Assembly (NCBI RefSeq): GCF_016862895.1
Contig: NZ_BONV01000024.1
Coordinates: forward strand, 1-64,000
Source of the DNA: Planotetraspora kaengkrachanensis
GTDB lineage: Bacteria > Actinomycetota > Actinomycetes > Streptosporangiales > Streptosporangiaceae
DNA: 64,000 nucleotides
Direction: 5' to 3'
Part shown: positions 1,888 to 17,783 of the stretch, piece after piece
How the letters are laid out: every line of letters starts with the position of its first letter
Position numbering within the stretch: position 1 is the stretch's first letter
The notes under the pieces: model-generated
Databases searched by the model: none
What the model was told of the DNA's origin: nothing
Seen by the model: the letters and a program-made list of their open reading frames with translations, nothing else
Program-made: the position numbers and the translations under genes

Positions 1888-3051
1888 ATGAGCTTCCCTC
1901 TGTACGCGCCCGCTGAGGAGCATGAGATGCTCCGCGAGACGGTCCGGGCCCTCGCCGACGAAAAGATCGCTCCCCGTGCCGCCGCGGCGGACGAGAACGA
2001 GGAGTTCCCGTGGGAGGTCTACAAGGACCTCGTCGCGGCCGACCTGCACGCCGTGCACATCCCCGAGGAGTACGGCGGAGCCGGCGCCGACGCGCTCGCC
2101 ACCGTCATCGTGATCGAGGAGGTCGCCCGCGCGTGCGCGTCGTCCTCGCTCATCCCCGCGGTCAACAAGCTGGGGACGGTCCCGCTGCTGTTGTCGGCGT
2201 CGGACGAGGTCAAGCGGCGCTACCTGACGCCCGTGGCGGGCGGCGACGCGATGTTCTCCTACGCGTTGAGCGAGGCAGAGGCCGGGTCGGACGCGGCCGC
2301 CATGAAGACCCGTGCGGTCAAGGACGGCGACCACTACGTGCTCAACGGCACCAAGATGTGGATCACCAACGCGGGCGTCTCGGAGTACTACACGGTCATG
2401 GCGGTGACCGACCCGTCGGCCGGCGCCCGCGGGATCTCCGCCTTCGTCGTCGAGAAGAGCGACGAAGGGGTCGGGTTCGGTCCCAAGGAGAAGAAGCTCG
2501 GCATCAAGGGGTCGCCGACCCGTCAGGTGATCCTCGAGAACGTCCGCATCCCCGAGTCGCGGATGATCGGCGAGCCCGGCTCCGGCTTCAAGACCGCGTT
2601 GGCCACGCTCGACCACACGCGGATCACGATCGCCGCGCAGGCGCTCGGCATCGCGCAGGGCGCGCTCGATTTCGCGATCGGCTACGTCAAGGAGCGCAAG
2701 CAGTTCGGCAAGGCGATCGCCGAGTTCCAGGGCCTGCAGTTCATGATCGCGGACATGGCGATGAAGCTCGAGGCCGCCCGTCAGCTCACTTATGCCGCGG
2801 CCGCGAAGTCGGAGCTCGCCATGCACGGCACGCGCGTCAAGGACCTGACGTTCTTCTCGAGCGCGGCCAAGACCGCCGCTTCCGACGCCGCCATGGAGAT
2901 CACCACCGACGCCGTCCAGCTCCTCGGCGGGTACGGCTACACGCGCGATTTCCCGGTCGAGCGCATGATGCGCGACGCGAAGATCACGCAGATCTACGAG
3001 GGCACCAACCAGATCCAGCGCATGGTCATGGCCCGCCAGCTGCTGAAGTAG
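1888..3051 (+). CDS. acyl-CoA dehydrogenase
   Basis: FAD-dependent alpha,beta-dehydrogenation of an acyl-CoA, in beta-oxidation or branched-chain amino acid breakdown; the substrate cannot be told from sequence. The 387 residues carry the three family domains: the N-terminal helical part, the middle beta domain with YALSEAEAGSD, and the C-terminal helical domain with the catalytic Glu in IYEGTNQIQR near the end. Translation starts at MSFPLYAPAEE. It stands alone, with a strong hairpin 15 bases past the stop. Its last 22 codons plus the terminator are duplicated about 7.2 kb to the right, which suggests that its 3' end served as an integration site. Confidence 0.95.
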   Translation: MSFPLYAPAEEHEMLRETVRALADEKIAPRAAAADENEEFPWEVYKDLVAADLHAVHIPEEYGGAGADALATVIVIEEVARACASSSLIPAVNKLGTVPLLLSASDEVKRRYLTPVAGGDAMFSYALSEAEAGSDAAAMKTRAVKDGDHYVLNGTKMWITNAGVSEYYTVMAVTDPSAGARGISAFVVEKSDEGVGFGPKEKKLGIKGSPTRQVILENVRIPESRMIGEPGSGFKTALATLDHTRITIAAQALGIAQGALDFAIGYVKERKQFGKAIAEFQGLQFMIADMAMKLEAARQLTYAAAAKSELAMHGTRVKDLTFFSSAAKTAASDAAMEITTDAVQLLGGYGYTRDFPVERMMRDAKITQIYEGTNQIQRMVMARQLLK

Positions 3052-3105
3052 CCCCTGACATGCGAAAACCCCGCTTCCCTAGTGTGGGCGGCGGGGTTCG
3101 TTCAT
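2986..3105 (+). repeat. left copy of the dehydrogenase 3'-end direct repeat
   Basis: It covers the last 22 codons of the acyl-CoA dehydrogenase and its terminator. Positions 2986-3041 (56 bases) are identical to 10209-10264. Beyond that the copies differ by two silent Leu codon changes, a short insertion after the right-hand stop codon and scattered single bases. Conservation across both a coding end and a terminator argues for duplication by integration rather than chance. Confidence 0.85.
3067..3098 (+). terminator. terminator hairpin after acyl-CoA dehydrogenase
   Basis: AACCCCGC at 3067-3074 pairs with GCGGGGTT at 3091-3098, starting 15 bases after the stop codon. A T-containing stretch follows. 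A near-identical hairpin is at 10300-10331. Confidence 0.75.
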
Positions 3106-3132
3106 GTCCGATTCGGAGCACCTAAAGGATCT

Positions 3133-3155
3133 TGTTCCGTCACTGTTCCGTGAGA
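3133..3155 (+). repeat. paired TGTTCCGT motif, left end
   Basis: TGTTCCGT, three bases, then TGTTCCGTGAGA. The same arrangement in the same orientation is at 10080-10102. Only the three-base spacer differs (CAC here, GGC there). Short directly repeated motifs beside the duplicated core are what tyrosine-integrase arm sites look like; that role is inferred. Confidence 0.5.
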
Positions 3156-3551
3156 GTCGCAGGGCGCGTCTGGCGCTGGTCGTGAACGCCCGTTCATATG
3201 CGTTTGGTCACCTCGCGAGCTGCGTCACAGCTTTGTATCCCTGCTCTCCAACATCGCGCGGAAGGTCACCGGGAGGCATGTACACGCGAACGACGGCTTG
3301 ACCCCAGGCGTCCGGCCCGGCATGGCTACGCCTGCCCGACGAGGAGATGACCGGCAGGCGGCACCCGTGCGGAGACCGAGACCCGGGCGCGAAATCGCGG
3401 TACCCGTTCCGAGAACGGGCTCAATAGGGTCACCGCCCTCCAGGTCGACACGGCAGGCCGAAGACGCATGCCACGGGCACGTCATCCGGCTAGCAACCCT
3501 GATGCAAGGCCGGTATTTGATTGCGTACGTTCGGGCCGTTTCGGAGGTGCG
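3156..3551. other. gene-free stretch inside the left end
   Basis: No reading frame here has a convincing start, ribosome site or recognisable family. The small frames present look like noise. I see no RNA gene. Confidence 0.5.
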
Positions 3552-3899
3552 TCAGTTGGCGCGTTCGCGCGGTGCGCGGTCGGGTACCGTCGCGCGGCCC
3601 GGGAAGCGACTGTCGACGAGTTCCTTGTATTCAGGGTGGTCGGCAATGTAGTCCGCCACGAAGGGGCAGTAGTTGGTGAGCTTCAGGTCTTGCGCTCGTA
3701 GATCGTCCAGAGCGTGTTTGACAAGCCGGGTTGCGATCCCTCGGCCGCGGTACTCAGGCTCAACGATCGTGTGGCTGAACGTCACGCGTTGATTGCCACG
3801 CGGTGCGTGGTAGACGATCATGCCGACAACCTGTCCCTCGACCACGGCTTCGTATGATCCGCTGTCGCCGTTCTTCTGCACATTCATCTCGGGGTTCAC
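3552..3899 (-). CDS. GNAT-family N-acetyltransferase (small, YjdJ-type)
   Basis: Predicted acetyl-CoA-dependent acyltransferase of 115 residues, the size of the minimal single-domain GNAT group. The core is visible: a beta-hairpin around GQVVGMIVYH, HTIVEPEYRGRGIATRLV as the acetyl-CoA-binding motif A, and a C-terminal part containing YCPFVADYIADHPEYKELV, typical of this subgroup. The start is the GTG at 3899, with AGGAG seven bases upstream; the frame stays open much further upstream but that extension resembles nothing. The substrate is unknown. It stands alone in the accessory segment. Confidence 0.8.
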   Translation of the reverse strand: MNPEMNVQKNGDSGSYEAVVEGQVVGMIVYHAPRGNQRVTFSHTIVEPEYRGRGIATRLVKHALDDLRAQDLKLTNYCPFVADYIADHPEYKELVDSRFPGRATVPDRAPRERAN

Positions 3900-4442
3900 T
3901 GGGTTTCTCCTGATATTTCCTTGAGTAGCGTGGTCTTCGCTGCTTGGGGTGAGGTCGTCGTTTCCGGTGGCGCAAGTGCGAACGTGTTCCAACGCAACGT
4001 TGAGAGCGACGGCGATGGGTTCACAGTTGTGCGCGGCACGAGCGAGCGTAAAGCTGCCCGGCCAGGGCTTGACGGGACCACTCGTCTTGATGAACAGCTG
4101 AACGGGCATCGCGCCGAGCCCAGCTGGTGTCACGGGGTGTGAAGAGGGAGGGCTGCCGGCGTCAACGAGTGGCTGAAGGGCGCGGTCAGGTGCCATCTTG
4201 AGTCGACGAGTGGTGAGCATGGAACTTCGAACGTCGTGCTCCAAAACTTTGCGGTAGCGCTCCCATCGGAGAAGGTCAGCGTCAGCGTGTACGCTTCGGC
4301 GGTCCGCGACCGACATCGCGCAGGCCGTGACGACCGGCGGCGCCTGCCGCCGGTCTGGCCGTCCGGAGTGTGCCGACATCGAGGACCGAGGTGTCCGAGG
4401 CCGGCGTACTCCAGCCACGGTCCTTCCCGATGCCGTGGTTGT
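3900..4442. other. gene-free stretch between GNAT and nitroreductase
   Basis: About 540 bases with no recognisable gene. One minus-strand frame is open across much of it in continuation of the GNAT frame, but its translation is not protein-like in composition and has no ribosome site. It probably holds the GNAT promoter plus decayed DNA. Confidence 0.45.
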
Positions 4443-5096
4443 TTAGCGGAAAGTGAACAGCTGGTCGGATTCGAAGCGCGAAATCGGGTTGCTGTACACC
4501 TTCGCGGGGTCGGGGTAGCCGAGGAGCATCAGCACTGTCGCGGTGTATCCGGTTTCGCGGATCTTGAACGCCTCGTCGACGCAGACCGGGTCGAACCCTT
4601 CGAGTGGCATGGCCTCGACGCCGAGCTCAGCGGCCGCCATCAGGGTCATGCCCAGCACCATGTAGGTCTGCTTTTCCATCCAGTGGTTCATGTTCTCGTC
4701 GCCGTACATGCGCGGCAGGCCGAGGAAGCCGAGGAAGTCACTGTTCATTGACTCCCGCAGCTCCTGCTGTGCCAGGTCCGGGAACCGGCCATCGGCCCTC
4801 TCCTTCGAGAACACCGCCTCGACGTGGCTCTCGGGCAGATCTACCCGGGTGGTGAGGATGATGGCGTGCGACGCGCGCAGGATCTTCTCGCCGTTGTCGA
4901 AATCGCCCAGGTTGTTGGCAAGCCGCTCTTTGCCTTCGGGTGTGGCGAGGACGTAGAAGTGGTTGGGCTGGATGTTCGTCGACGTGGGCGCCGAGCGCAG
5001 GAACCTCAGCAGCTGCTGAAGGGTTTCCTCAGGAATGGCCTTGCTGGGGTCCAAATACCTGCTGAGGTGCTTGCTCATGAGCTTGTCGAGATTCAT
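4443..5096 (-). CDS. NfsB-like oxygen-insensitive NAD(P)H nitroreductase
   Basis: FMN flavoenzyme reducing nitroaromatics or quinones with NAD(P)H. The ATG at 5096 gives 217 residues, the same length as E. coli NfsB. Family features seen are the N-terminal SKHLSRYLDPSKAIPEE, the FMN-site region LRSAPTSTNIQPNHFYV, the central substrate-loop segment DFLGFLGLPRMYGDENMNHW, and a C-terminal GYPDP motif. The ribosome site is only a weak AAGAAG. An NfsB of the enterobacterial type is not a core actinomycete gene; with the mobile debris around it, acquisition by transfer is likely. The physiological substrate is unknown. Confidence 0.85.
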   Translation of the reverse strand: MNLDKLMSKHLSRYLDPSKAIPEETLQQLLRFLRSAPTSTNIQPNHFYVLATPEGKERLANNLGDFDNGEKILRASHAIILTTRVDLPESHVEAVFSKERADGRFPDLAQQELRESMNSDFLGFLGLPRMYGDENMNHWMEKQTYMVLGMTLMAAAELGVEAMPLEGFDPVCVDEAFKIRETGYTATVLMLLGYPDPAKVYSNPISRFESDQLFTFR

Positions 5097-5310
5097 ATCA
5101 ATCTGTCTTCTTCTTGTTGGCTGCTTCCATGCGACGACGCTAGCCAACAGTCGGACCCGTAGCAGGATCCAAATCCATGCCAGATATGGGTACCACTGTC
5201 GCGGGCGACCTCGCCTCGGCGACGACAGGCATCACTTTCGAGCGCCTTGGCGAACTACTTGCCCGTGGCAAGAACTAGCCCAAACTCGACGAACCACCGC
5301 TCCTCACCTG

Positions 5311-5798
5311 CTGGTAATGCTTGGGACGTTCGCGTGGCGGGTTGACCACGAAGATCCATCTGTCGTGTGAGCAGAAGGTCACGTCCCTGCTGGTCACTGC
5401 CGGTCAACGGGGAGACTCGCCGCAGTTCCAGCCCGTGCTGGAGGTGATTAGCGTGCCCAGGATGGGTGCGGGTCGTCCCCGTAAACGGCCGGACAGGGGC
5501 CGGGCCGACAGGGCCTATGGCTCACGCGCCAACCGCGCCTACCTGCGTAGACGAGGTATCCGTTGCACGATCCTGAAAAAAGACCGACCAGATCCGCCAC
5601 CGCAAGAACCACGGCAGCCGCGGAGGCCGGCCACCAGTGTTCTGCGCGCTTGACTACCGCCAACGCCACGCCGTTGAGTGCGGCATCAACCGGCTCAAAC
5701 GACACCGTGCCGTGGCCACCAGATACGAAAAACTCGCCGTCCGCCACGAAGCCACCATCCACATCGCCGTCATCAACGACTGGCTGACCTGCCTTTGA
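5311..5798 (+). pseudogene. IS5-family transposase relic
   Basis: C-terminal part of a DDE transposase. It opens with GRSRGGLTTKIHLS, then TAGQRGDSPQFQPVL, RADRAYGSRANRAYLRRRGI, and after at least two frame changes GINRLKRH and [23 protein letters not shown]-type sequence, ending at a TGA at 5796-5798. The N-terminal third and the first catalytic region are missing. It cannot encode a functional enzyme. Confidence 0.85.
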
Positions 5799-5807
5799 AA
5801 CAGGCTC
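5794..5807. repeat. right terminal inverted repeat of the IS5 relic
   Basis: TTTGAAACAGGCTC overlaps the transposase stop codon, as is usual at the right end of this IS5 subgroup. I found no matching left end, so the element is truncated on that side. Confidence 0.5.
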
Positions 5808-5830
5808 TAGCTCGCCGGTCGACGTGCATT

Positions 5831-7255
5831 TCATCGGGCTGATCCGTGCTGTCCGTTGGTGATGGTGGCGAGCAGGGCGATGGCCTCGTCGATGGCGTGG
5901 GGGGTGATGTTGCCGTAGCCGATGACGACGCCGAGGGGGTCCGGGTCAGGGGTGAGCTGGTAGCGGGTGATGGAGTCGAACGCGATCCCGACGGCCTGGG
6001 CGCGCGCGGTCAGCTGGTCGGGGTGGGTGCCGTCGAGCTGGGTCGCGAGGGCCTGGACGCCGGCGGGTGTCCCTGCAAGTCGTAGGGGCACGTCATGACG
6101 GGTGATGGCCTGCTCGAGGGCTTGCCGAGCGGTTCGGTAGCGGGTCCGGGCGGCGCGGATGTGCCGGTCGTAGTCGCCGGCTTCGATGAGGTGAGCCAGA
6201 GCGAGTTGATCGAGGGTCGGGCTGCCATGGTCGGCGAGGAACTTGGGGAGCAGCAGCTCGCTGTGCAGTTCGGCCGGGCTGACCATCCAGCCCAGACGTA
6301 GCGCCGGGGCGAGCGTCTTGCTGGTGGATCCAAGGTAGACGACACGGTCAGGCGCACGGCCTTGCAGACAGCCCACAGCGCGTCGGTCGAAGCGGAACTC
6401 CCCATCGTAGTCGTCCTCGACGACGATCGCGCCGCAGCGCCCGGCCCAGGCCAGCAGTGCCTCCCGGCGGGCGGGTGCCATGACCGCGCCGGTAGGGAAC
6501 TGGTGAGCTGGGGTGGTCAGTACTGCGTCAACGCCTTGCTCGGGTAGTTGGTCGACGAGGATGCCGTCGCCGTCGACCGAGACGGGCATGACAGCGAGAC
6601 CGGCCTGTTGCAGGATCGGTGCGCGGTGAGGCATCCCCAGGTCCTCGAGCGCGACGGTCCGTGCGCCTCGGGCACGCAGGGTATGGGCGAGCAGGTGAAG
6701 GCCCTGGGTGAAACCGGCACAGATCAGCAGCCGCTGCGGGTCGGCGTACACGCCGCGGACCCGACCGAGGTAGGCGGCTAGCACCTGACGCAGCCGGGGA
6801 TGCCCGGCGGAGTCGGGGTACGCCAGATCGGAGTCCGCGGCAGCACGCAGCGCGGCCGTCCATGCCCGCCGCCACAGGTGGCGGGGGAACGCCGATAGCG
6901 TCGGAATGCCTGGGCGCATGTCCCATCGGGCTGAGCGTTCCGGCGACCGGAGAGCAGCAGGCGCATTGGCGGCCGGCGGCAGGGCCAGGTCAGAGACGCA
7001 GGTGCCAGAGCCGGGCCGGCTGACCAGATAGCCCTCGGCGGTCAGCTGCGTATAGACCTCGACGACCAGGCGACGAGAGACTCCCAGGTCGCCAGCCAAA
7101 ACACGGCTGGCCGGCAACCGCTGACCGGCCGCGAGCCGACCGGTACGCACCGCGTCGCGCAGGGCGCTCTCAAGCTGAACCCGGCGAGGTCGTCCGGGCT
7201 GCGGTGGTTCGATCGGGAGGAGGAGCTCCACCCCAGACGAGACGCCGCGGGACAT
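5831..7255 (-). CDS. MocR/PdxR-type GntR regulator with aminotransferase domain
   Basis: Transcription factor of 474 residues. A GntR winged helix (about 20-90, with GQRLPASRVLAGDLGVSRR) is joined to a fold-type I aminotransferase-like domain (about 110-460). The PLP-binding Lys is in YLGSTSKTLAPALRLG, and VVEDDYDGEFRFD gives the conserved Asp. Such proteins sense PLP or amino acids and usually control a neighbouring gene. No PLP-synthesis or aminotransferase gene lies beside it, so the target is unclear; the flanks are transposase relics. The gene is intact. The chosen ATG follows the usual short N-terminal segment. Confidence 0.9.
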   Translation of the reverse strand: MSRGVSSGVELLLPIEPPQPGRPRRVQLESALRDAVRTGRLAAGQRLPASRVLAGDLGVSRRLVVEVYTQLTAEGYLVSRPGSGTCVSDLALPPAANAPAALRSPERSARWDMRPGIPTLSAFPRHLWRRAWTAALRAAADSDLAYPDSAGHPRLRQVLAAYLGRVRGVYADPQRLLICAGFTQGLHLLAHTLRARGARTVALEDLGMPHRAPILQQAGLAVMPVSVDGDGILVDQLPEQGVDAVLTTPAHQFPTGAVMAPARREALLAWAGRCGAIVVEDDYDGEFRFDRRAVGCLQGRAPDRVVYLGSTSKTLAPALRLGWMVSPAELHSELLLPKFLADHGSPTLDQLALAHLIEAGDYDRHIRAARTRYRTARQALEQAITRHDVPLRLAGTPAGVQALATQLDGTHPDQLTARAQAVGIAFDSITRYQLTPDPDPLGVVIGYGNITPHAIDEAIALLATITNGQHGSAR

Positions 7256-7457
7256 GATTCAAGGGTCGCCTAGCGCCAACGGGCGCACAATGCGGAATAA
7301 TTCGAGCTAGCCTACGTGTGAGACGAAGGCACAATGATGGAGACCACCTCAGAGCCAATGACCATTCGACGGAGCGGAGTTCTCGGGCGGCAAAGTCTTT
7401 CTCGACAAACCTCGTGATTGGTCTCGGCCACCGACTGGCCTACCGGATCACGCACCC

Positions 7458-7607
7458 GAGGAGGTCGCCGCCCCGGTCGCGGATGAGCGGATGCCGGATG
7501 CGTTCTGGCGGGGCCTGCGGCTGATGGCGGTGGACGGCACCGTCTTCGACCTGCCCTCGGGCCGGCCCCGTCCCATGTCCTGCGAACTCGGCGATCTCCC
7601 CAGATGA
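7458..7607 (+). pseudogene. IS4-family transposase fragment
   Basis: One frame reads PEEVAAPVADERMPDAF followed by WRGLRLMAVDGTVFDLP, matching the end of the IS4 N-terminal domain and the first catalytic Asp region (VDGT). The frame then diverges and stops. About 50 codons of a protein normally over 400 residues long survive. Confidence 0.7.
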
Positions 7608-8263
7608 TCAACCCAACCCGCTTGACGCGACACCAAAACCGCTAACTACGCGGCCTTGCTTCAAGGCGGCCCTAACCGGGCCGCACGCGCCGCCGTCACG
7701 GCGCACGCCGCCTCCCGCTGGCGCTCCCGGCGGACAGCGCACAAAGAACGCCGGACGGCTGGCGCGGACGAGTCGATGGGCCGCCAGGCGACAGTACATC
7801 TCTGATCACAGGACCGATGAGCTGAGCTGGAACAGCCGCCAGGTGCCGACCGTATGTGGTGATGCCTCCGGCGGGGGCGCTCCGGCTCCGGGATGGCATT
7901 CGAACACACGTACAGGTTGTGGGGTGGCTGGGGTAGGGTTGCCATCCCGCCCGCCATCGACCCAGGCGAGCCCAGCAGCCCGTCTCCTCCGCCGCAAGCC
8001 CGGCTGTGACCGTTGGCATCCCATCACCGTGGAAGGCGCACAGGCGCAGGGACACGTCAAGCCGGGCTTGCACCTCTGTCGCCGGCCCGCTGCCGCTCCG
8101 CGGTGGGTCGACGGCAAACGGGATGGGGGCGGATCTCTTCTCTGCGGCGGTCATCACAGCCACCATCGGCCGGGTGGTTGAGCGGCACTGGAGTGCTTGA
8201 GGCAGGTACACGCGATGCCGGCCTGCCCCTCCGTCGCAAAGATTCACCTTCGTCCAACAAACC
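7608..8263. other. gene-free stretch between IS4 fragment and sensor kinase
   Basis: About 650 bases without a credible gene. Several overlapping frames on both strands are open because of high GC, but none has a ribosome site or recognisable motif. It is probably decayed insertion DNA. Confidence 0.5.
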
Positions 8264-9490
8264 CTAGGCCGCGAGGGGGAGGCGGAGGACGAAGCGGGCG
8301 CCGGTGGGGTGATCGGCGGCGTACAGGCGCCCGCCGTAGGCGTGGGCGATCTCGCGGGCGATGGGCAGACCGAGCCCGGAGCCACCGGGATCCCGGCGAC
8401 AGGCATCGTCCAGGCGGAAGAGGCGCTCGAAGATTCTTTCGCGGTCAGCCGGAGCAATGCCGGGGCCATCGTCGATGACTTCCAGGACCGCGTCCGGTGG
8501 GTCGCCGGTGACGCTGATCTCGATCACCGTAGAGGTGTGCCGTTCGGCGTTGTTGACCAGGTTGCCCAGGAGCCGCGCCAGCCGGATCCGGGAGGCGTTC
8601 ACCACCACCTGCCTCTCGAGCCGGGTAACGACGGCTACGGTCAGAGTGCGGCGTTTCAGTTCATCTATCACCAGCTGGGTCAGGTCGACTGGTTCGGTTG
8701 GGGCGGGCGGCGCGGCGTCCAGACGGGCGAGTTCGAGCAGATCGTTCACGATGTCGTTGAGTCGCTCGGCGTCCAGCAGCAGTTTGCGCAGGAGCTGGTG
8801 CAGGTCGCTGTCAGGTTCTGCGATCGCGACCTCAAGCTCGGCCAGGAGCCCAGTGATCGGGTTGCGCAAGTCGTGGGAGGCGTCGAAGACGAACCGCCGC
8901 TGCCGTTCGATGGCCTCTCGTAACATCGACGTGGTCTGGCGTTGTTGCCTGTGCGCCTGCTTGAGTTCTTCGTTGAGCTCCTGGAGCTCGCATGCGCGAG
9001 CGTAGAGGTCGGTTCTCATCGCCTCAAGCTCAGACCGAGCCCTCGTGACGTCGCGCTCGCCGGACAACCTCAGCTGCTGGAGGAACTCAGTGACGTCCTC
9101 AGTCCGGAGAACGATTAATTCCACCTCACCGTCCGGGTCCAGGACGGGCATGTTGATCGTGCTCCAGTACCGCTCCTCGAACACGCCCGGTATGCCGCTC
9201 GCCTCGATGTCGTACCGTTGCAGCGCCATGGTGTCCCGTTGGCCAGTGGCGACAACGCGTACCAGCGAAGCATGCAGACGCATCACCCCCTGCACGTCAG
9301 GATCGTTAGGAGCGTTGGGATTGCCGGGGAAGACGGCGAAGAAGTCCCGGCCGAGCAGGTCCGCCTGACTCCGCCCGACCAACTTCAGGAAGGAGTCGTT
9401 GGCCGCCACTACGACGAAGTGCGGTGTCATGACTAGCAACGGGGACACGATGGCCTTGAACACCGCCCTGCAGTCAACCCTTGAATCCAT
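8264..9490 (-). CDS. PAS-domain sensor histidine kinase (orphan)
   Basis: Soluble sensor kinase of 408 residues. An N-terminal PAS domain (about 10-130, with FVVVAANDSFLKLVGRS) is followed by a coiled coil (about 140-195). Next is a HisKA dimerisation domain with the phospho-His in FDASHDLRNPITGLLAE. The C-terminal HATPase has the N box LGNLVNNAERHT and G boxes VIDDGPGIAP and GSGLGLPIARE. No transmembrane segment is seen, so it should sense a cytosolic signal such as redox state or a ligand. No response regulator is adjacent. The ATG at 9490 follows GGTGAGG by seven bases; a GTG at 9493 is possible. Confidence 0.88.
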   Translation of the reverse strand: MDSRVDCRAVFKAIVSPLLVMTPHFVVVAANDSFLKLVGRSQADLLGRDFFAVFPGNPNAPNDPDVQGVMRLHASLVRVVATGQRDTMALQRYDIEASGIPGVFEERYWSTINMPVLDPDGEVELIVLRTEDVTEFLQQLRLSGERDVTRARSELEAMRTDLYARACELQELNEELKQAHRQQRQTTSMLREAIERQRRFVFDASHDLRNPITGLLAELEVAIAEPDSDLHQLLRKLLLDAERLNDIVNDLLELARLDAAPPAPTEPVDLTQLVIDELKRRTLTVAVVTRLERQVVVNASRIRLARLLGNLVNNAERHTSTVIEISVTGDPPDAVLEVIDDGPGIAPADRERIFERLFRLDDACRRDPGGSGLGLPIAREIAHAYGGRLYAADHPTGARFVLRLPLAA

Positions 9491-9703
9491 CACAACACCT
9501 CACCTGCGTTCCGCGTAATTCGGGTTGCCTGGAGACACGAACAGGCGGTTGACCTGGTGGAAATGTCCGTACAGGCTTGCCAGGGCGTGCCTCTAGCGAT
9601 GTGACCTCTCGGGCCAATTCAGGTCGCGACCGGCTTCCACCCGGAGTGCTGGCACGAAGACACCCGTGCGCCGGGTAGATGGACCATTTCGTCCAGTTTG
9701 TTC

Positions 9704-10057
9704 TTATGTGTGAACATTGTCAATTGTCAAGACCCTCCGAGACGATGATCCGAAACGGCCTGGCTCAGAGCTCGTCCGGCCGCGAGGACCGGCAACTGGC
9801 GAGACAGCCTGAGCGACCAAGTGAGTAACGCCATCGCCACGATCTCTGAGCATCGATTGTTCGAGAACCCAGTTGTCAGGCCTTGCGTAGGGGAGGGTGA
9901 CGAGTAGGACGTTGTATGGCCCCTCTGCCAGTTCAACCGCGAAGGTCAGGGGGGACCAGCCGACTCCTTCGCAGTAGGTCGGTTTGTGGCGGACGCGCCA
10001 GCGGTACGTCGTGTCACTTACGGTGATGAGGCGGGAGCCCTTCTTGGGGAGCGTCAT
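9704..10057 (-). CDS. hypothetical protein of an actinomycete-specific small family
   Basis: About 117 residues from the ATG at 10057, preceded by AGAAGGGGG. The N-terminal half (LPKKGSRLITV, TYRWRVRHKPTYCEGVGWSPLTF) resembles a widespread actinobacterial family of unknown function. The C-terminal half, after the NWVLEQSM segment, does not continue the family pattern I know, so the gene may have suffered a frameshift and gained a random tail. No function is assigned. It lies next to the right-end TGTTCCGT pair. Confidence 0.5.
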   Translation of the reverse strand: MTLPKKGSRLITVSDTTYRWRVRHKPTYCEGVGWSPLTFAVELAEGPYNVLLVTLPYARPDNWVLEQSMLRDRGDGVTHLVAQAVSPVAGPRGRTSSEPGRFGSSSRRVLTIDNVHT

Positions 10058-10079
10058 GAGCCCCCTTCTGATCATGGTC

Positions 10080-10102
10080 TGTTCCGTGGCTGTTCCGTGA
10101 GA
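10080..10102 (+). repeat. paired TGTTCCGT motif, right end
   Basis: TGTTCCGT, GGC, TGTTCCGTGAGA; same order and orientation as 3133-3155. It lies 107 bases before the right copy of the dehydrogenase 3' end. Possible integrase arm site (inference). Confidence 0.5.
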
Positions 10103-10208
10103 ACGTTGAAATCGGCAGCAACCTATGGAAGATCTCGGCAAGCGTATGTCCTGGTCAACGACAAGATCCAGGGGTAATCGCAGGCGGCTTAGGGACGCGA
10201 CGTAGAAC

Positions 10209-10337
10209 ACGCAGATCTACGAGGGCACCAACCAGATCCAGCGCATGGTCATGGCCCGCCAGCTCCTCAAGTAGCTCAAGTAGGCCGCTGACATGCGAAA
10301 ACCCCGCTTCCCCAGTGTGGGCGGCGGGGTTCGTCAT
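10209..10337 (+). pseudogene. right copy of acyl-CoA dehydrogenase 3' end
   Basis: It encodes TQIYEGTNQIQRMVMARQLL, Lys and a stop, identical in protein to the end of the gene at 1888-3051, then the same terminator. A nine-base duplication, CTCAAGTAG, repeats the final codons and stop. No dehydrogenase body lies upstream; similarity fades about 13 bases before 10209. It is therefore a remnant or att-like duplicate, not a gene. Confidence 0.85.
10300..10331 (+). terminator. terminator hairpin of the duplicated 3' end
   Basis: AACCCCGC at 10300-10307 pairs with GCGGGGTT at 10324-10331; counterpart of the hairpin at 3067-3098. Confidence 0.7.
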
Positions 10338-10341
10338 ATCT

Positions 10342-10377
10342 GGGCGCCCGCCCGGTCCACGGACCGGGCGGGCGCCC
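10342..10377 (+). terminator. strong GC hairpin with T-tract
   Basis: GGGCGCCCGCCCGGTCC pairs with its complement in GGACCGGGCGGGCGCCC around a very short loop, and TTTT follows. It reads as a rho-independent terminator on the plus strand, right after the duplicated dehydrogenase terminator. Confidence 0.8.
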
Positions 10378-10454
10378 TTTTCGCACTGCACGGCGGTCAC
10401 TCGTGCGCTGCGGACAGCCCTTCCCTCATCGGTTCGCGAGGCATGGTGGCCATC

Positions 10455-11036
10455 TCAGCGGGCGACGTCATAGACCAGCTTGGTGATGCCGTTGGCGTAC
10501 GTCTCGGACTCGACCACCTTCAGCATCTGCTTCTCCTTGTCGGTGTCGCTGAACATCCGCTTGCCGGCTCCCAGCAGCACCGGGAACACCAGCAGGTGGT
10601 AGCGGTCGATCAGACCGGCGTCGGAGAGGTTGCGAGCGAGGGTGGCGCTGCCGTGGATGACGATGGGGCCGCCGTCGGTCTCCTTGACCTTCGCGACGTC
10701 CTCGAGGGAACGAAGAATCGTGATGTCCCCCCAGTTGTCGACGAGGGCGTCCTCGCCGAGGGTGGTCGAGACGACGTACTTCGGCAGGTCCTTGAGGGCG
10801 GCGAAGTCCTCCATGTCCGGCCATAGCGGCGCGAAGGCCTCATAGCTGGTCCGGCCGAACATCAGCGCGGCGGACTCCCCGATCTCCCGACCCTTGATCT
10901 CGTATGCCTCGGGCAGGAACTCGATGTCCTTGTAGGTCCAGCCGCCGCTGCGGTGGGTCTCGGAGGGGAGTCCGCCGCCGGGAGAGTCGACGACCCCGTC
11001 CAGCGAGACGAAGGCGGTGTAGATCAGCAAACGCAT
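10455..11036 (-). CDS. dihydrofolate reductase family / RibD C-terminal domain protein
   Basis: Predicted NADPH-dependent reductase of 193 residues, the standalone RibD_C type. Motifs are the N-terminal FVSLDGVVDSP, the cofactor segment ALMFGRTSYEAF, and GGPIVIHGSATLARNL with LLVFPVLLGAGKRMF. The actual substrate of such standalone proteins is generally unknown, and no riboflavin or folate gene is nearby. The ATG at 11036 has AAAGGA seven bases upstream. It is monocistronic, running away from the AraC gene on its right. Confidence 0.88.
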   Translation of the reverse strand: MRLLIYTAFVSLDGVVDSPGGGLPSETHRSGGWTYKDIEFLPEAYEIKGREIGESAALMFGRTSYEAFAPLWPDMEDFAALKDLPKYVVSTTLGEDALVDNWGDITILRSLEDVAKVKETDGGPIVIHGSATLARNLSDAGLIDRYHLLVFPVLLGAGKRMFSDTDKEKQMLKVVESETYANGITKLVYDVAR

Positions 11037-11196
11037 TCGATGTCCTTTCCGTCGTCAGGTGGAGATCTCTATCCTGCGGTGGCGTCACGCGCGCGGCAAT
11101 GATCAATGCTCATCATCTGATCTCAGAACTCGGCACGCTTCAAGCTCTCCCGCCAACCCCGAAACCACTTGATCCACGGCCTGGCGAACGTCGGGA

Positions 11197-16686: not shown

Positions 16687-17783
16687 TCAAGCGGAAATTC
16701 AGCGTTCACCACGAACCCCCCGTTCCGTCCTGCCCCGGCCGTGAGCGTGCCGCCGCATGCCGCCGCCCGTTCCCGCATCCCGGCCAGCCCGTAGCCGCCG
16801 CCATCGCCCGGCCCCCGCCCGTCGTCGGCGACCTCCACCGTCAGGTTCTCCCCCCAGGTCAGAGAGAGGCGTACGGCACGCGTGCCGGCGTGTTTGCGCA
16901 CGTTGGTGAGCGCCTCCTGAACGATGCGGTAGACGGCCGCCTCGACGCTCTCCGCGACCGGACGCGAGGTGCCGACGGTCCTGCTCACCACATCGAGGCC
17001 GCTGCGCTCGCTCAGCGCGGGAAGGTTGGCCAGGCGGGGCTGGAGCAGTGCCTCGCCGGCACGGCCCCACGCCTGACCGCCGTCGGCCGGGTTCCGCAGT
17101 GCGGCGAGCACACCCCGAAGCTCGGTCAGCGCGCTTCTTCCCGTGTTCGCGATCGCATCGAAGACCGCCTCGGCCCTGCCCGGGTCGCTGCGCACCACCA
17201 CCGGCCCGGCCTCGGCCTGAACCACCATCAGCCCGACGGAATGGGTGACGATGTCATGCATGTCGCGCGCGATCCGGGTGCGTTCCTCGGCCGCCGCCGC
17301 GACGTGCTCCTGCTCCTGCCGCCGTGCCCGCTCGGCCAGTTCGGCCGCGCGCGAGCGGCTCGCCCTGGCACTGGTGCCCAGCGCGTAGGCGGCCACGAAG
17401 GCGGTACCCATCAGCCGGAAGGTCTCGTCGTCCTCTCCCGGCAGCACCAGCGAGACGCCCACAGCAGCCACGATCGCCGGAATCGCCGCGAATCTCTTCC
17501 ACATGGGGCTCAGATCGGCGATCGTGTAGACGGCCAGCAGCGGCCCGAAGGGCAGGAACGGTTTCTCCCACATCACCATCACGGACATCGCCGCGCCGAC
17601 CACCACCGCCACGACCATCGGCGCCCGCCTGCGCCACCACACCGGCACCGACGCCAGCAGCCCCAGCCCGATGATCCACCATGGTTTGGGATCGGGCAGG
17701 ACGAGCGGGCCGACCGTGGCGAGGACCACGCACACCGCGAGCGCCCCGTCTATCGCCCTGCCGACCCGGCCCGCTGCGATCAT
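16683..17783 (-). CDS. NarX-type sensor histidine kinase
   Basis: 366 residues with about five N-terminal membrane helices (1-140) and no large extracellular domain. The HisKA_3 dimerisation domain has the phospho-His in ARDMHDIVTHSVGLMVVQAE. The ATPase domain has VADDGRGPGDGGGYGLAGMRERA-type G boxes. This intramembrane-sensing layout is common in actinomycete kinases that respond to envelope stress or antibiotics; the signal here is unknown. The ATG at 17783 is preferred over GTG 17822, whose purine box is too close. Confidence 0.9.
   Translation of the reverse strand: MIAAGRVGRAIDGALAVCVVLATVGPLVLPDPKPWWIIGLGLLASVPVWWRRRAPMVVAVVVGAAMSVMVMWEKPFLPFGPLLAVYTIADLSPMWKRFAAIPAIVAAVGVSLVLPGEDDETFRLMGTAFVAAYALGTSARASRSRAAELAERARRQEQEHVAAAAEERTRIARDMHDIVTHSVGLMVVQAEAGPVVVRSDPGRAEAVFDAIANTGRSALTELRGVLAALRNPADGGQAWGRAGEALLQPRLANLPALSERSGLDVVSRTVGTSRPVAESVEAAVYRIVQEALTNVRKHAGTRAVRLSLTWGENLTVEVADDGRGPGDGGGYGLAGMRERAAACGGTLTAGAGRNGGFVVNAEFPLE

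Follow-up and report, generated by a model that had tools for sequence, protein, structure and literature searches.

The window considered here is a stretch of DNA 64,000 nucleotides long, bases 1-64000 of contig C24, from the 8.77-Mb genome of Planotetraspora kaengkrachanensis. It includes an intact gene for an acyl-CoA dehydrogenase (ACAD) of 387 amino acids (1888-3051, forward strand; Pfam Acyl-CoA_dh N, M and 1) whose 3' end occurs a second time downstream; the segment between the two copies (3049-10208) appears to be the relic of an integrated element. The left copy of the duplicated attachment (att) block, on the attL side, occupies 2985-3041 on the forward strand, and in a gapped alignment its 57 bases are identical to 10208-10264. 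Beyond the exact block, similarity between left and right spans the stop codon and the terminator and continues to about 3108 and 10340, respectively. The last 22 ACAD codons (ITQIYEGTNQIQRMVMARQLLK) lie inside the att block or border it. The right copy (attR; 10208-10340, forward strand), delimited by gapped alignment and junction comparison, consists of core, stop codon and terminator with no gene body. It reads CTCCTCAAGTAGCTCAAGTAGGCCG where the left copy reads CTGCTGAAGTAGCCC, a difference of two silently changed Leu codons plus a short extra duplication.

A 191-base query compared with the organism's own genome matches both copies (E 2e-95 and 9e-45), whereas the four further matches are far weaker (E 7e-14 to 1e-4, 31-90 bases, 76-90% identity); one of these four, on contig C21, is another ACAD. 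This disparity rules out a chance repeat. A preliminary description of this DNA had already reported the identical block, at 56 bases (2986-3041 and 10209-10264); the identity stands, and the length is corrected to 57. Its further statements, that similarity runs on through the stop codon and terminator, that the left copy closes an intact gene, that the right copy has no gene body, and that two nearby Leu codons differ silently, agree with the alignment and with the open reading frames (ORFs). It did not contain the absence of an integrase from the segment, the direct paired repeats inside both segment ends, or the targeting of several ACAD paralogues as a family instead of a single gene.

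Four genomes of the same genus were compared for an empty site, and one, G002, has it. In G002 the upstream neighbour of the window ACAD is followed by the ACAD and this, directly, by the right flank of the window (96.8% identity over 760 bases); the 19.9 kb examined contain no other ACAD gene. The first right-flank gene of the window (10455-11036, reverse strand; RibD_C domain) lies in the flank that directly follows the ACAD gene in G002. Upstream of the core, the G002 junction matches the left copy in 79 of 83 columns and the right copy in 16 of 83; downstream of the core the right copy is closer (69/76, against 58/77 for the left copy), and past the terminator the figures are 120/160 for the right copy and 23/180 for the left. 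A tail duplication (CTCAAGTAG twice) is common to G002 and the right copy; the left copy, G001, G003, G004 and G009 lack it. Because the flank match and the shared tail duplication both favour the right copy, the right copy is, on this comparison of sequences, the original 3' end, now displaced, and the left copy arrived with the segment; the last 22 codons of the window ACAD would thus derive from the element. The preliminary description had read the two copies as attL and attR and had proposed a search of relatives for an empty site; the single ACAD of G002, joined to the right flank, bears that reading out, as do integrases that adjoin ACAD 3' ends in related elements.

Short, apparently bodiless ACAD 3' ends also occur in other genomes. 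In Nonomuraea deserti (G007, L052 = L087), a tyrosine integrase (PF00589, PF14659) faces the ACAD end from 174 bases away, and a bodiless tail lies about 9 kb off. Similarity of the L087 integrase (10001-11137) to its relatives is lost after residue 374 and the frame ends shortly after; this copy may therefore be inactive. Relatives of the integrase were gathered by integrase sequence alone, with no ACAD criterion. At E 1e-30, 116 of 297 family genomes match, many of them distantly. Among 69 named integrase loci, an ACAD lies beside the integrase in 47, and the two genes are convergent in all 47, with matched ends 81-263 bases apart in 37 and 360-1,471 bases apart in 10. The stretches examined at the other 22 loci contain no ACAD. 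In an integrase tree restricted to loci with 250 or more aligned residues (62 loci), one clade of 46 rows includes 43 with an ACAD, and none of the 16 rows outside it has one. The exceptions within the clade are L095, which reaches a contig end 91 bases on, L100 (same place as G286), which has an ACAD 13 kb away on one side and a bodiless copy on the other, and L115. Pfam scans of the genes that adjoin L100 and nine integrases from outside the clade found mixed neighbours and no common gene. A tail copy at the far end was seen within the stretch examined at L087, L091, L096, L114 and L117; a weak second-copy match at L111 proved on reading not to be an att copy. The Microbispora catharanthi element L096 carries the integrase together with a RepSA-type replication initiator (PF20199 above cut-off, NF041486 below) and a glycoside hydrolase, and by this pairing at least a part of the family is similar to actinomycete integrative and conjugative elements (AICEs); no Tra gene was recognised in the five of seven L096 ORFs scanned.

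Both ends of the window segment resemble the ends of these elements. The left end (3046-3191, forward strand) has 146 bases with 77-78% identity to the left ends of the integrase-bearing Microbispora elements L096 and L097, and the similarity stops at about 3191, some 100 bases before an integrase would end. The right end (9917-10188, no strand assigned) shares 69% identity with the right end of the Nonomuraea element L091 across 272 bases. Inside both ends lies a pair of 8-mers, TGTTCCGTnnCTGTTCCGT, in direct orientation, with units at 3133/3144 and 10080/10091. The left pair (TGTTCCGTCACTGTTCCGTGAGA; 3133-3155, forward strand) is 149 bases after the core start (2984), and the right pair (TGTTCCGTGGCTGTTCCGTGAGA; 10080-10102, forward strand) is 128 bases before the core. 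These offsets agree with the standard distances of the family: in related elements, wherever the pair was found, its distance past the start of the attL core is 145-151 bases (mostly 148-149) and its distance ahead of the attR core is 127-128 bases. The paired repeats are putative arm sites of the integrase.

A search of 338 family genomes with an extended motif found 72 sites in 49 genomes among the matches listed and none with the reversed control. Thirty-one of the 72 listed sites, in 30 loci, were examined, and for 27 of them the distance to ACAD core codons falls within one of two narrow ranges. Fifteen are downstream of an open frame of 371-455 codons that closes in an ACAD tail, 133-136 bases after the EGT codons; 11 are upstream of a bodiless tail, at 141-142 bases; and one is downstream of a bodiless core flanked by two pairs. 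One of the four sites outside these ranges, L229, shows by eye a decayed core at the expected place. With a relaxed motif, 25 of the 47 ACAD-adjacent loci have a pair within 300 bases past the ACAD stop (39-99 bases after the stop, 81-86 in 14 of the 25); none of the 47 has one upstream, and none of 9,400 shuffled sequences has one. At Kribbella-type loci and some others the pair differs or is missing. The exact pair occurs three times in the genome of P. kaengkrachanensis: two of the occurrences are the window pairs, and the third is on contig C21.

The elements target several paralogues. At 50-60% identity the 47 ACADs form five classes, with 20, 17, 6, 3 and 1 members, and at 45% they form four; the motif EGTxx[IV]Q is present in all 47 tails. 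Mapping target labels, "none" included, onto the integrase tree needs at least 13 changes, against a minimum possible of 5, so targets changed more than once; although they did, the tail fits the ACAD class of the host gene by eye in 47 of 47 loci. The att block begins just upstream of the EGT codons in the window as in L087, L091, L096, L114 and L117. Aligned with the solved medium-chain acyl-CoA dehydrogenase (MCAD; 1ege), residues 2-53 of the window tail query fall on 338-389 at equal lengths, which places Glu371 on residue 376. According to PMC11153573, Glu376 of mature MCAD is the catalytic residue, at a place conserved in all known ACADs but two; the att block thus covers codons of the active-site loop. 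The use of at least five ACAD paralogue classes would follow if the core lies on DNA for this conserved catalytic loop. A broader proposal is that one integrase lineage lands on the DNA for the ACAD catalytic loop (EGTxx[IV]Q) as others land on tRNA genes, reaching at least five classes with a matching active-site tail each time, and that its integrase-less offspring are mobile in trans. Taken whole, it is tentative and would more probably fail than hold.

No integrase or recognisable integrase remnant was found in the segment at 3049-10208, and the agent of integration has to be deduced from the relatives for that reason. A search for a hidden integrase with four related integrases as queries gave a best match of E 0.018 over 57 residues (about 6778-6938), within the span of a PdxR-like gene, and was taken as chance; integrase, Rep and Tra families were likewise absent from the eight segment ORFs scanned. 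The segment keeps attL and attR and has lost integration and transfer genes, as cis-mobilizable elements (CIMEs) do. The comparison covered 15 segments of which both ends were seen; thirteen had been chosen from among the matches listed rather than sampled at random. The integrase is near full length in six (L186, L193/194, L195, L196/197, L198/199, L200/201), partial, split or a fragment in five (L187, L188, L191/192, L202, L203), and missing between the ends in four (the window, L189, L190, L041). Since only six of 15 are near full length, integrase loss is frequent in this set. By its sequence, the window segment is a putative CIME-like relic that lost its integrase, and it probably stays in place as long as no related integrase is provided.

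On the reverse strand the segment carries as cargo a GNAT-like acetyltransferase (3552-3929; PF14542), a nitroreductase family protein (4443-5147; PF00881), a PdxR-like MocR/GntR regulator (5831-7255; NF052282 above cut-off) and a sensor histidine kinase with a PAS domain recognised by domain scan (8264-9493). On the same strand, a small gene at the right end (9704-10057; MTLPKKGSRLITVSDTTYRWRVR...) has no Pfam or NCBIfam match. The first 70 or so residues of this small gene (116 in L190) recur in part beside the right ends of L087, L091, L188, L189, L190, L194, L200 and L041. On the forward strand, 5321-5800 is a probable DDE transposase remnant, with a weak match to PF01609 (DDE_Tnp_1) below cut-off and two stops in frame; by eye only, about 7400-7610 also looks transposase-like. 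The stretch at 7862-8125 (about 260 bases, no strand assigned) is 70-76% identical to L096 (70%), where it lies just inside the right end, and to L100 and L125. Here it is 2 kb from the right end; this position suggests either that the ends of two elements were joined into a mosaic or that the kinase region was inserted.

A second scar is present elsewhere in the same genome. The repeat pair on C21 sits after another ACAD (tail IGEGTSEVQRM), and directly behind it, in the expected orientation, is a 22-residue piece 86% identical to the C-terminus of a Microbispora integrase; the stretch examined there has no second tail copy. Given this combination of ACAD, repeat pair and integrase piece, the genome was probably hit at two ACAD paralogues. 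At L040 (contig C44 of G004; positions 17643, 5990 and 3200), an ACAD is followed downstream on the same strand by two partial copies of tail and left end and is accompanied by a 20-residue integrase remnant; these are probably stacked (accreted) relics. At L194 (contig C56 of G095; 1799-2251), another repeat pair and an integrase C-terminal piece lie past the right tail copy, as expected for two elements in tandem. Contig C1 of G125 has two distant ACAD tails, at 743015 and 10830923, each adjoining an integrase piece of this family.

The reading that best joins these observations, at a probability of about 0.93, is that an element with a tyrosine integrase entered the ACAD 3' end by site-specific recombination, rebuilt the gene in frame, and later lost the integrase to become a CIME-like relic. 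In the proposed sequence of events, the integrase would bind the repeats and the core and recombine attP with the core in the ITQIYEGTNQIQ codons, with strand exchange near the 5' edge of the block. A matching gene tail carried on attP would restore the ACAD in frame with the same 22 residues, stop codon and terminator (attL), and the original tail would be displaced 7.2 kb downstream (attR). The gene would thereby be handed a synonymous tail, and the host enzyme would stay intact. The integrase would have been lost afterwards, leaving as cargo the nitroreductase, the acetyltransferase, the PdxR-like regulator and the sensor kinase. Several findings weigh against this account, the first being the lack of any integrase in the segment itself. 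Only one genome with an empty site was found; the right-flank gene sits on another contig in G001 and G003 and its match in G004 is weak, so that these genomes are uninformative for the empty site. Three of the 31 repeat sites examined have no ACAD core beside them on reading, the relaxed pattern finds no paired repeat in 22 of the 47 ACAD-adjacent loci, and with one mismatch allowed the pair has eight more matches in the organism's own genome and one match in the control. Three of the 46 rows of the integrase clade have no ACAD in the stretch examined, and support for the clade is moderate (92/88). Far-end tail copies were seen within the stretch examined in only five of the 47 loci; longer elements would extend beyond that stretch.

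Other origins of the duplicated tail are much less probable. The preliminary description had named a deleted tandem paralogue as its own alternative, in which the ACAD was duplicated in tandem and most of the second copy then deleted, leaving the 3' end at 10208. The right copy is indeed a pure 3' end, a possible outcome of deletion, but G002 has one ACAD joined to the right flank and bearing the tail of the right copy. Moreover, bodiless copies begin at about the same codon in L087, L091, L096 and others, and paired repeats stand at near-constant offsets within both ends; because deletions would not yield a constant breakpoint, this explanation is rejected and is the least probable of those considered. 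Scarcely more credible is homologous recombination between ACAD 3' ends with no integrase involved, for instance with a circular plasmid that carried an ACAD tail. Fifty-seven identical bases could allow rare homologous exchange, and the segment has no detected integrase, but among the homologues the integrase keeps a constant orientation and a mostly constant distance from the ACAD, repeat pairs are present at both ends, and the 5' edge of the att block is alike. Three other candidates were rejected: a tRNA target (no tRNA was found in the window), a phage origin (the homologous integrase has below 60% identity in all 766 phage records matched, and 26-29% among the 20 matches listed), and a plasmid origin (best match 38%). 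The eight segment ORFs scanned have no phage structural domain.

A separate question is whether the segment, once integrated by the tyrosine-integrase route, still moves. As a working CIME it could be excised by an integrase encoded elsewhere, in trans, or brought by a new element that enters one of the att sites. Neither the two cores nor any of the four repeat units is damaged, and their spacing is standard for the family; elements are arranged in tandem at the same site in G095 and probably in G004 and G286, and PMC5704250 and PMC9513070 describe CIMEs and accretion for integrative and conjugative elements, integrative and mobilizable elements and AICEs. Within its own genome, however, the Microbispora integrase query has a single match, a partial one in a 304-amino-acid frame on contig C1 (E 1e-10, 50% identity) with no ACAD in a 12-kb stretch, apart from the 22-residue remnant on C21, and the probable transposase remnant suggests ageing. 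Continued mobility is thus rather unlikely, though far less so than the alternative origins above.

The present account adds a recurrent chromosomal landing site in Actinomycetota, the 3' ends of ACAD genes, which would be rebuilt in frame through the catalytic loop. An ACAD tail with a paired repeat could mark islands, such as the one in the window, that escape searches based on integrases. A core sequence held constant by enzyme chemistry, as the data suggest, would explain how one lineage uses several paralogues. Tools for chromosomal integration, in Nonomuraea, Microbispora or Kribbella for example, might also be derived from the elements.

That elements enter gene ends and restore the gene in doing so is well known. 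The class of mechanism is therefore familiar, and the ACAD 3' end as a target looks undescribed in the open-access literature searched. The preliminary description had called the target little described, which fits the searches: those directed at elements with a tyrosine integrase in the 3' ends of ACAD genes turned up none in the open-access literature, outside which most subscription papers lie. The parts consulted of PMC7466150, PMC3219685 and PMC12884075 have nothing on such a site. In the AICE survey PMC3218068, the words "acyl-coa" and "dehydrogenase" are both missing from the main text. The only report found in open-access literature of another element in an acyl-CoA dehydrogenase gene is prophiT49-3 in the FadE gene MAB_1851 of Mycobacterium abscessus (PMC9934374); unlike the ACAD elements, that prophage has a serine integrase, sits at about position 280 of 1,140 bases, and likely inactivates the gene with no tail rebuilt.

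Besides this prophage, three known systems are closest. CIMEs, accretion and the decay of AICEs are described in PMC5704250 and PMC9513070; like those decayed elements, the window segment keeps attL and attR with cargo between them, its integrase and transfer genes were not found, and it has relatives in tandem at the same site, but its site is an ACAD gene end and not a tRNA gene. No decay series for an ACAD target was found in the literature searched. AICEs of the pSAM2 type combine Int, Rep and Tra, the three functions by which PMC3218068 defines the class. The homologue L096 resembles them in pairing its integrase with a RepSA-type initiator and in having the integrase adjoin attL. It differs in the lack of Tra among the ORFs scanned, and the window segment shows neither integrase nor RepSA and none of the three functions in its eight ORFs. 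The dusA-specific islands (PMC4482086, Farrugia et al. 2015), the nearest parallel in print, are the work of a tyrosine integrase family devoted to one conserved protein gene and, less often, to its paralogues dusB and dusC, and there too the island brings a replacement gene end. Those islands of Proteobacteria replace the 5' end of dusA, outside the known binding residues, whereas the ACAD elements of Actinomycetota would replace a 3' end that includes the codons of the catalytic loop.

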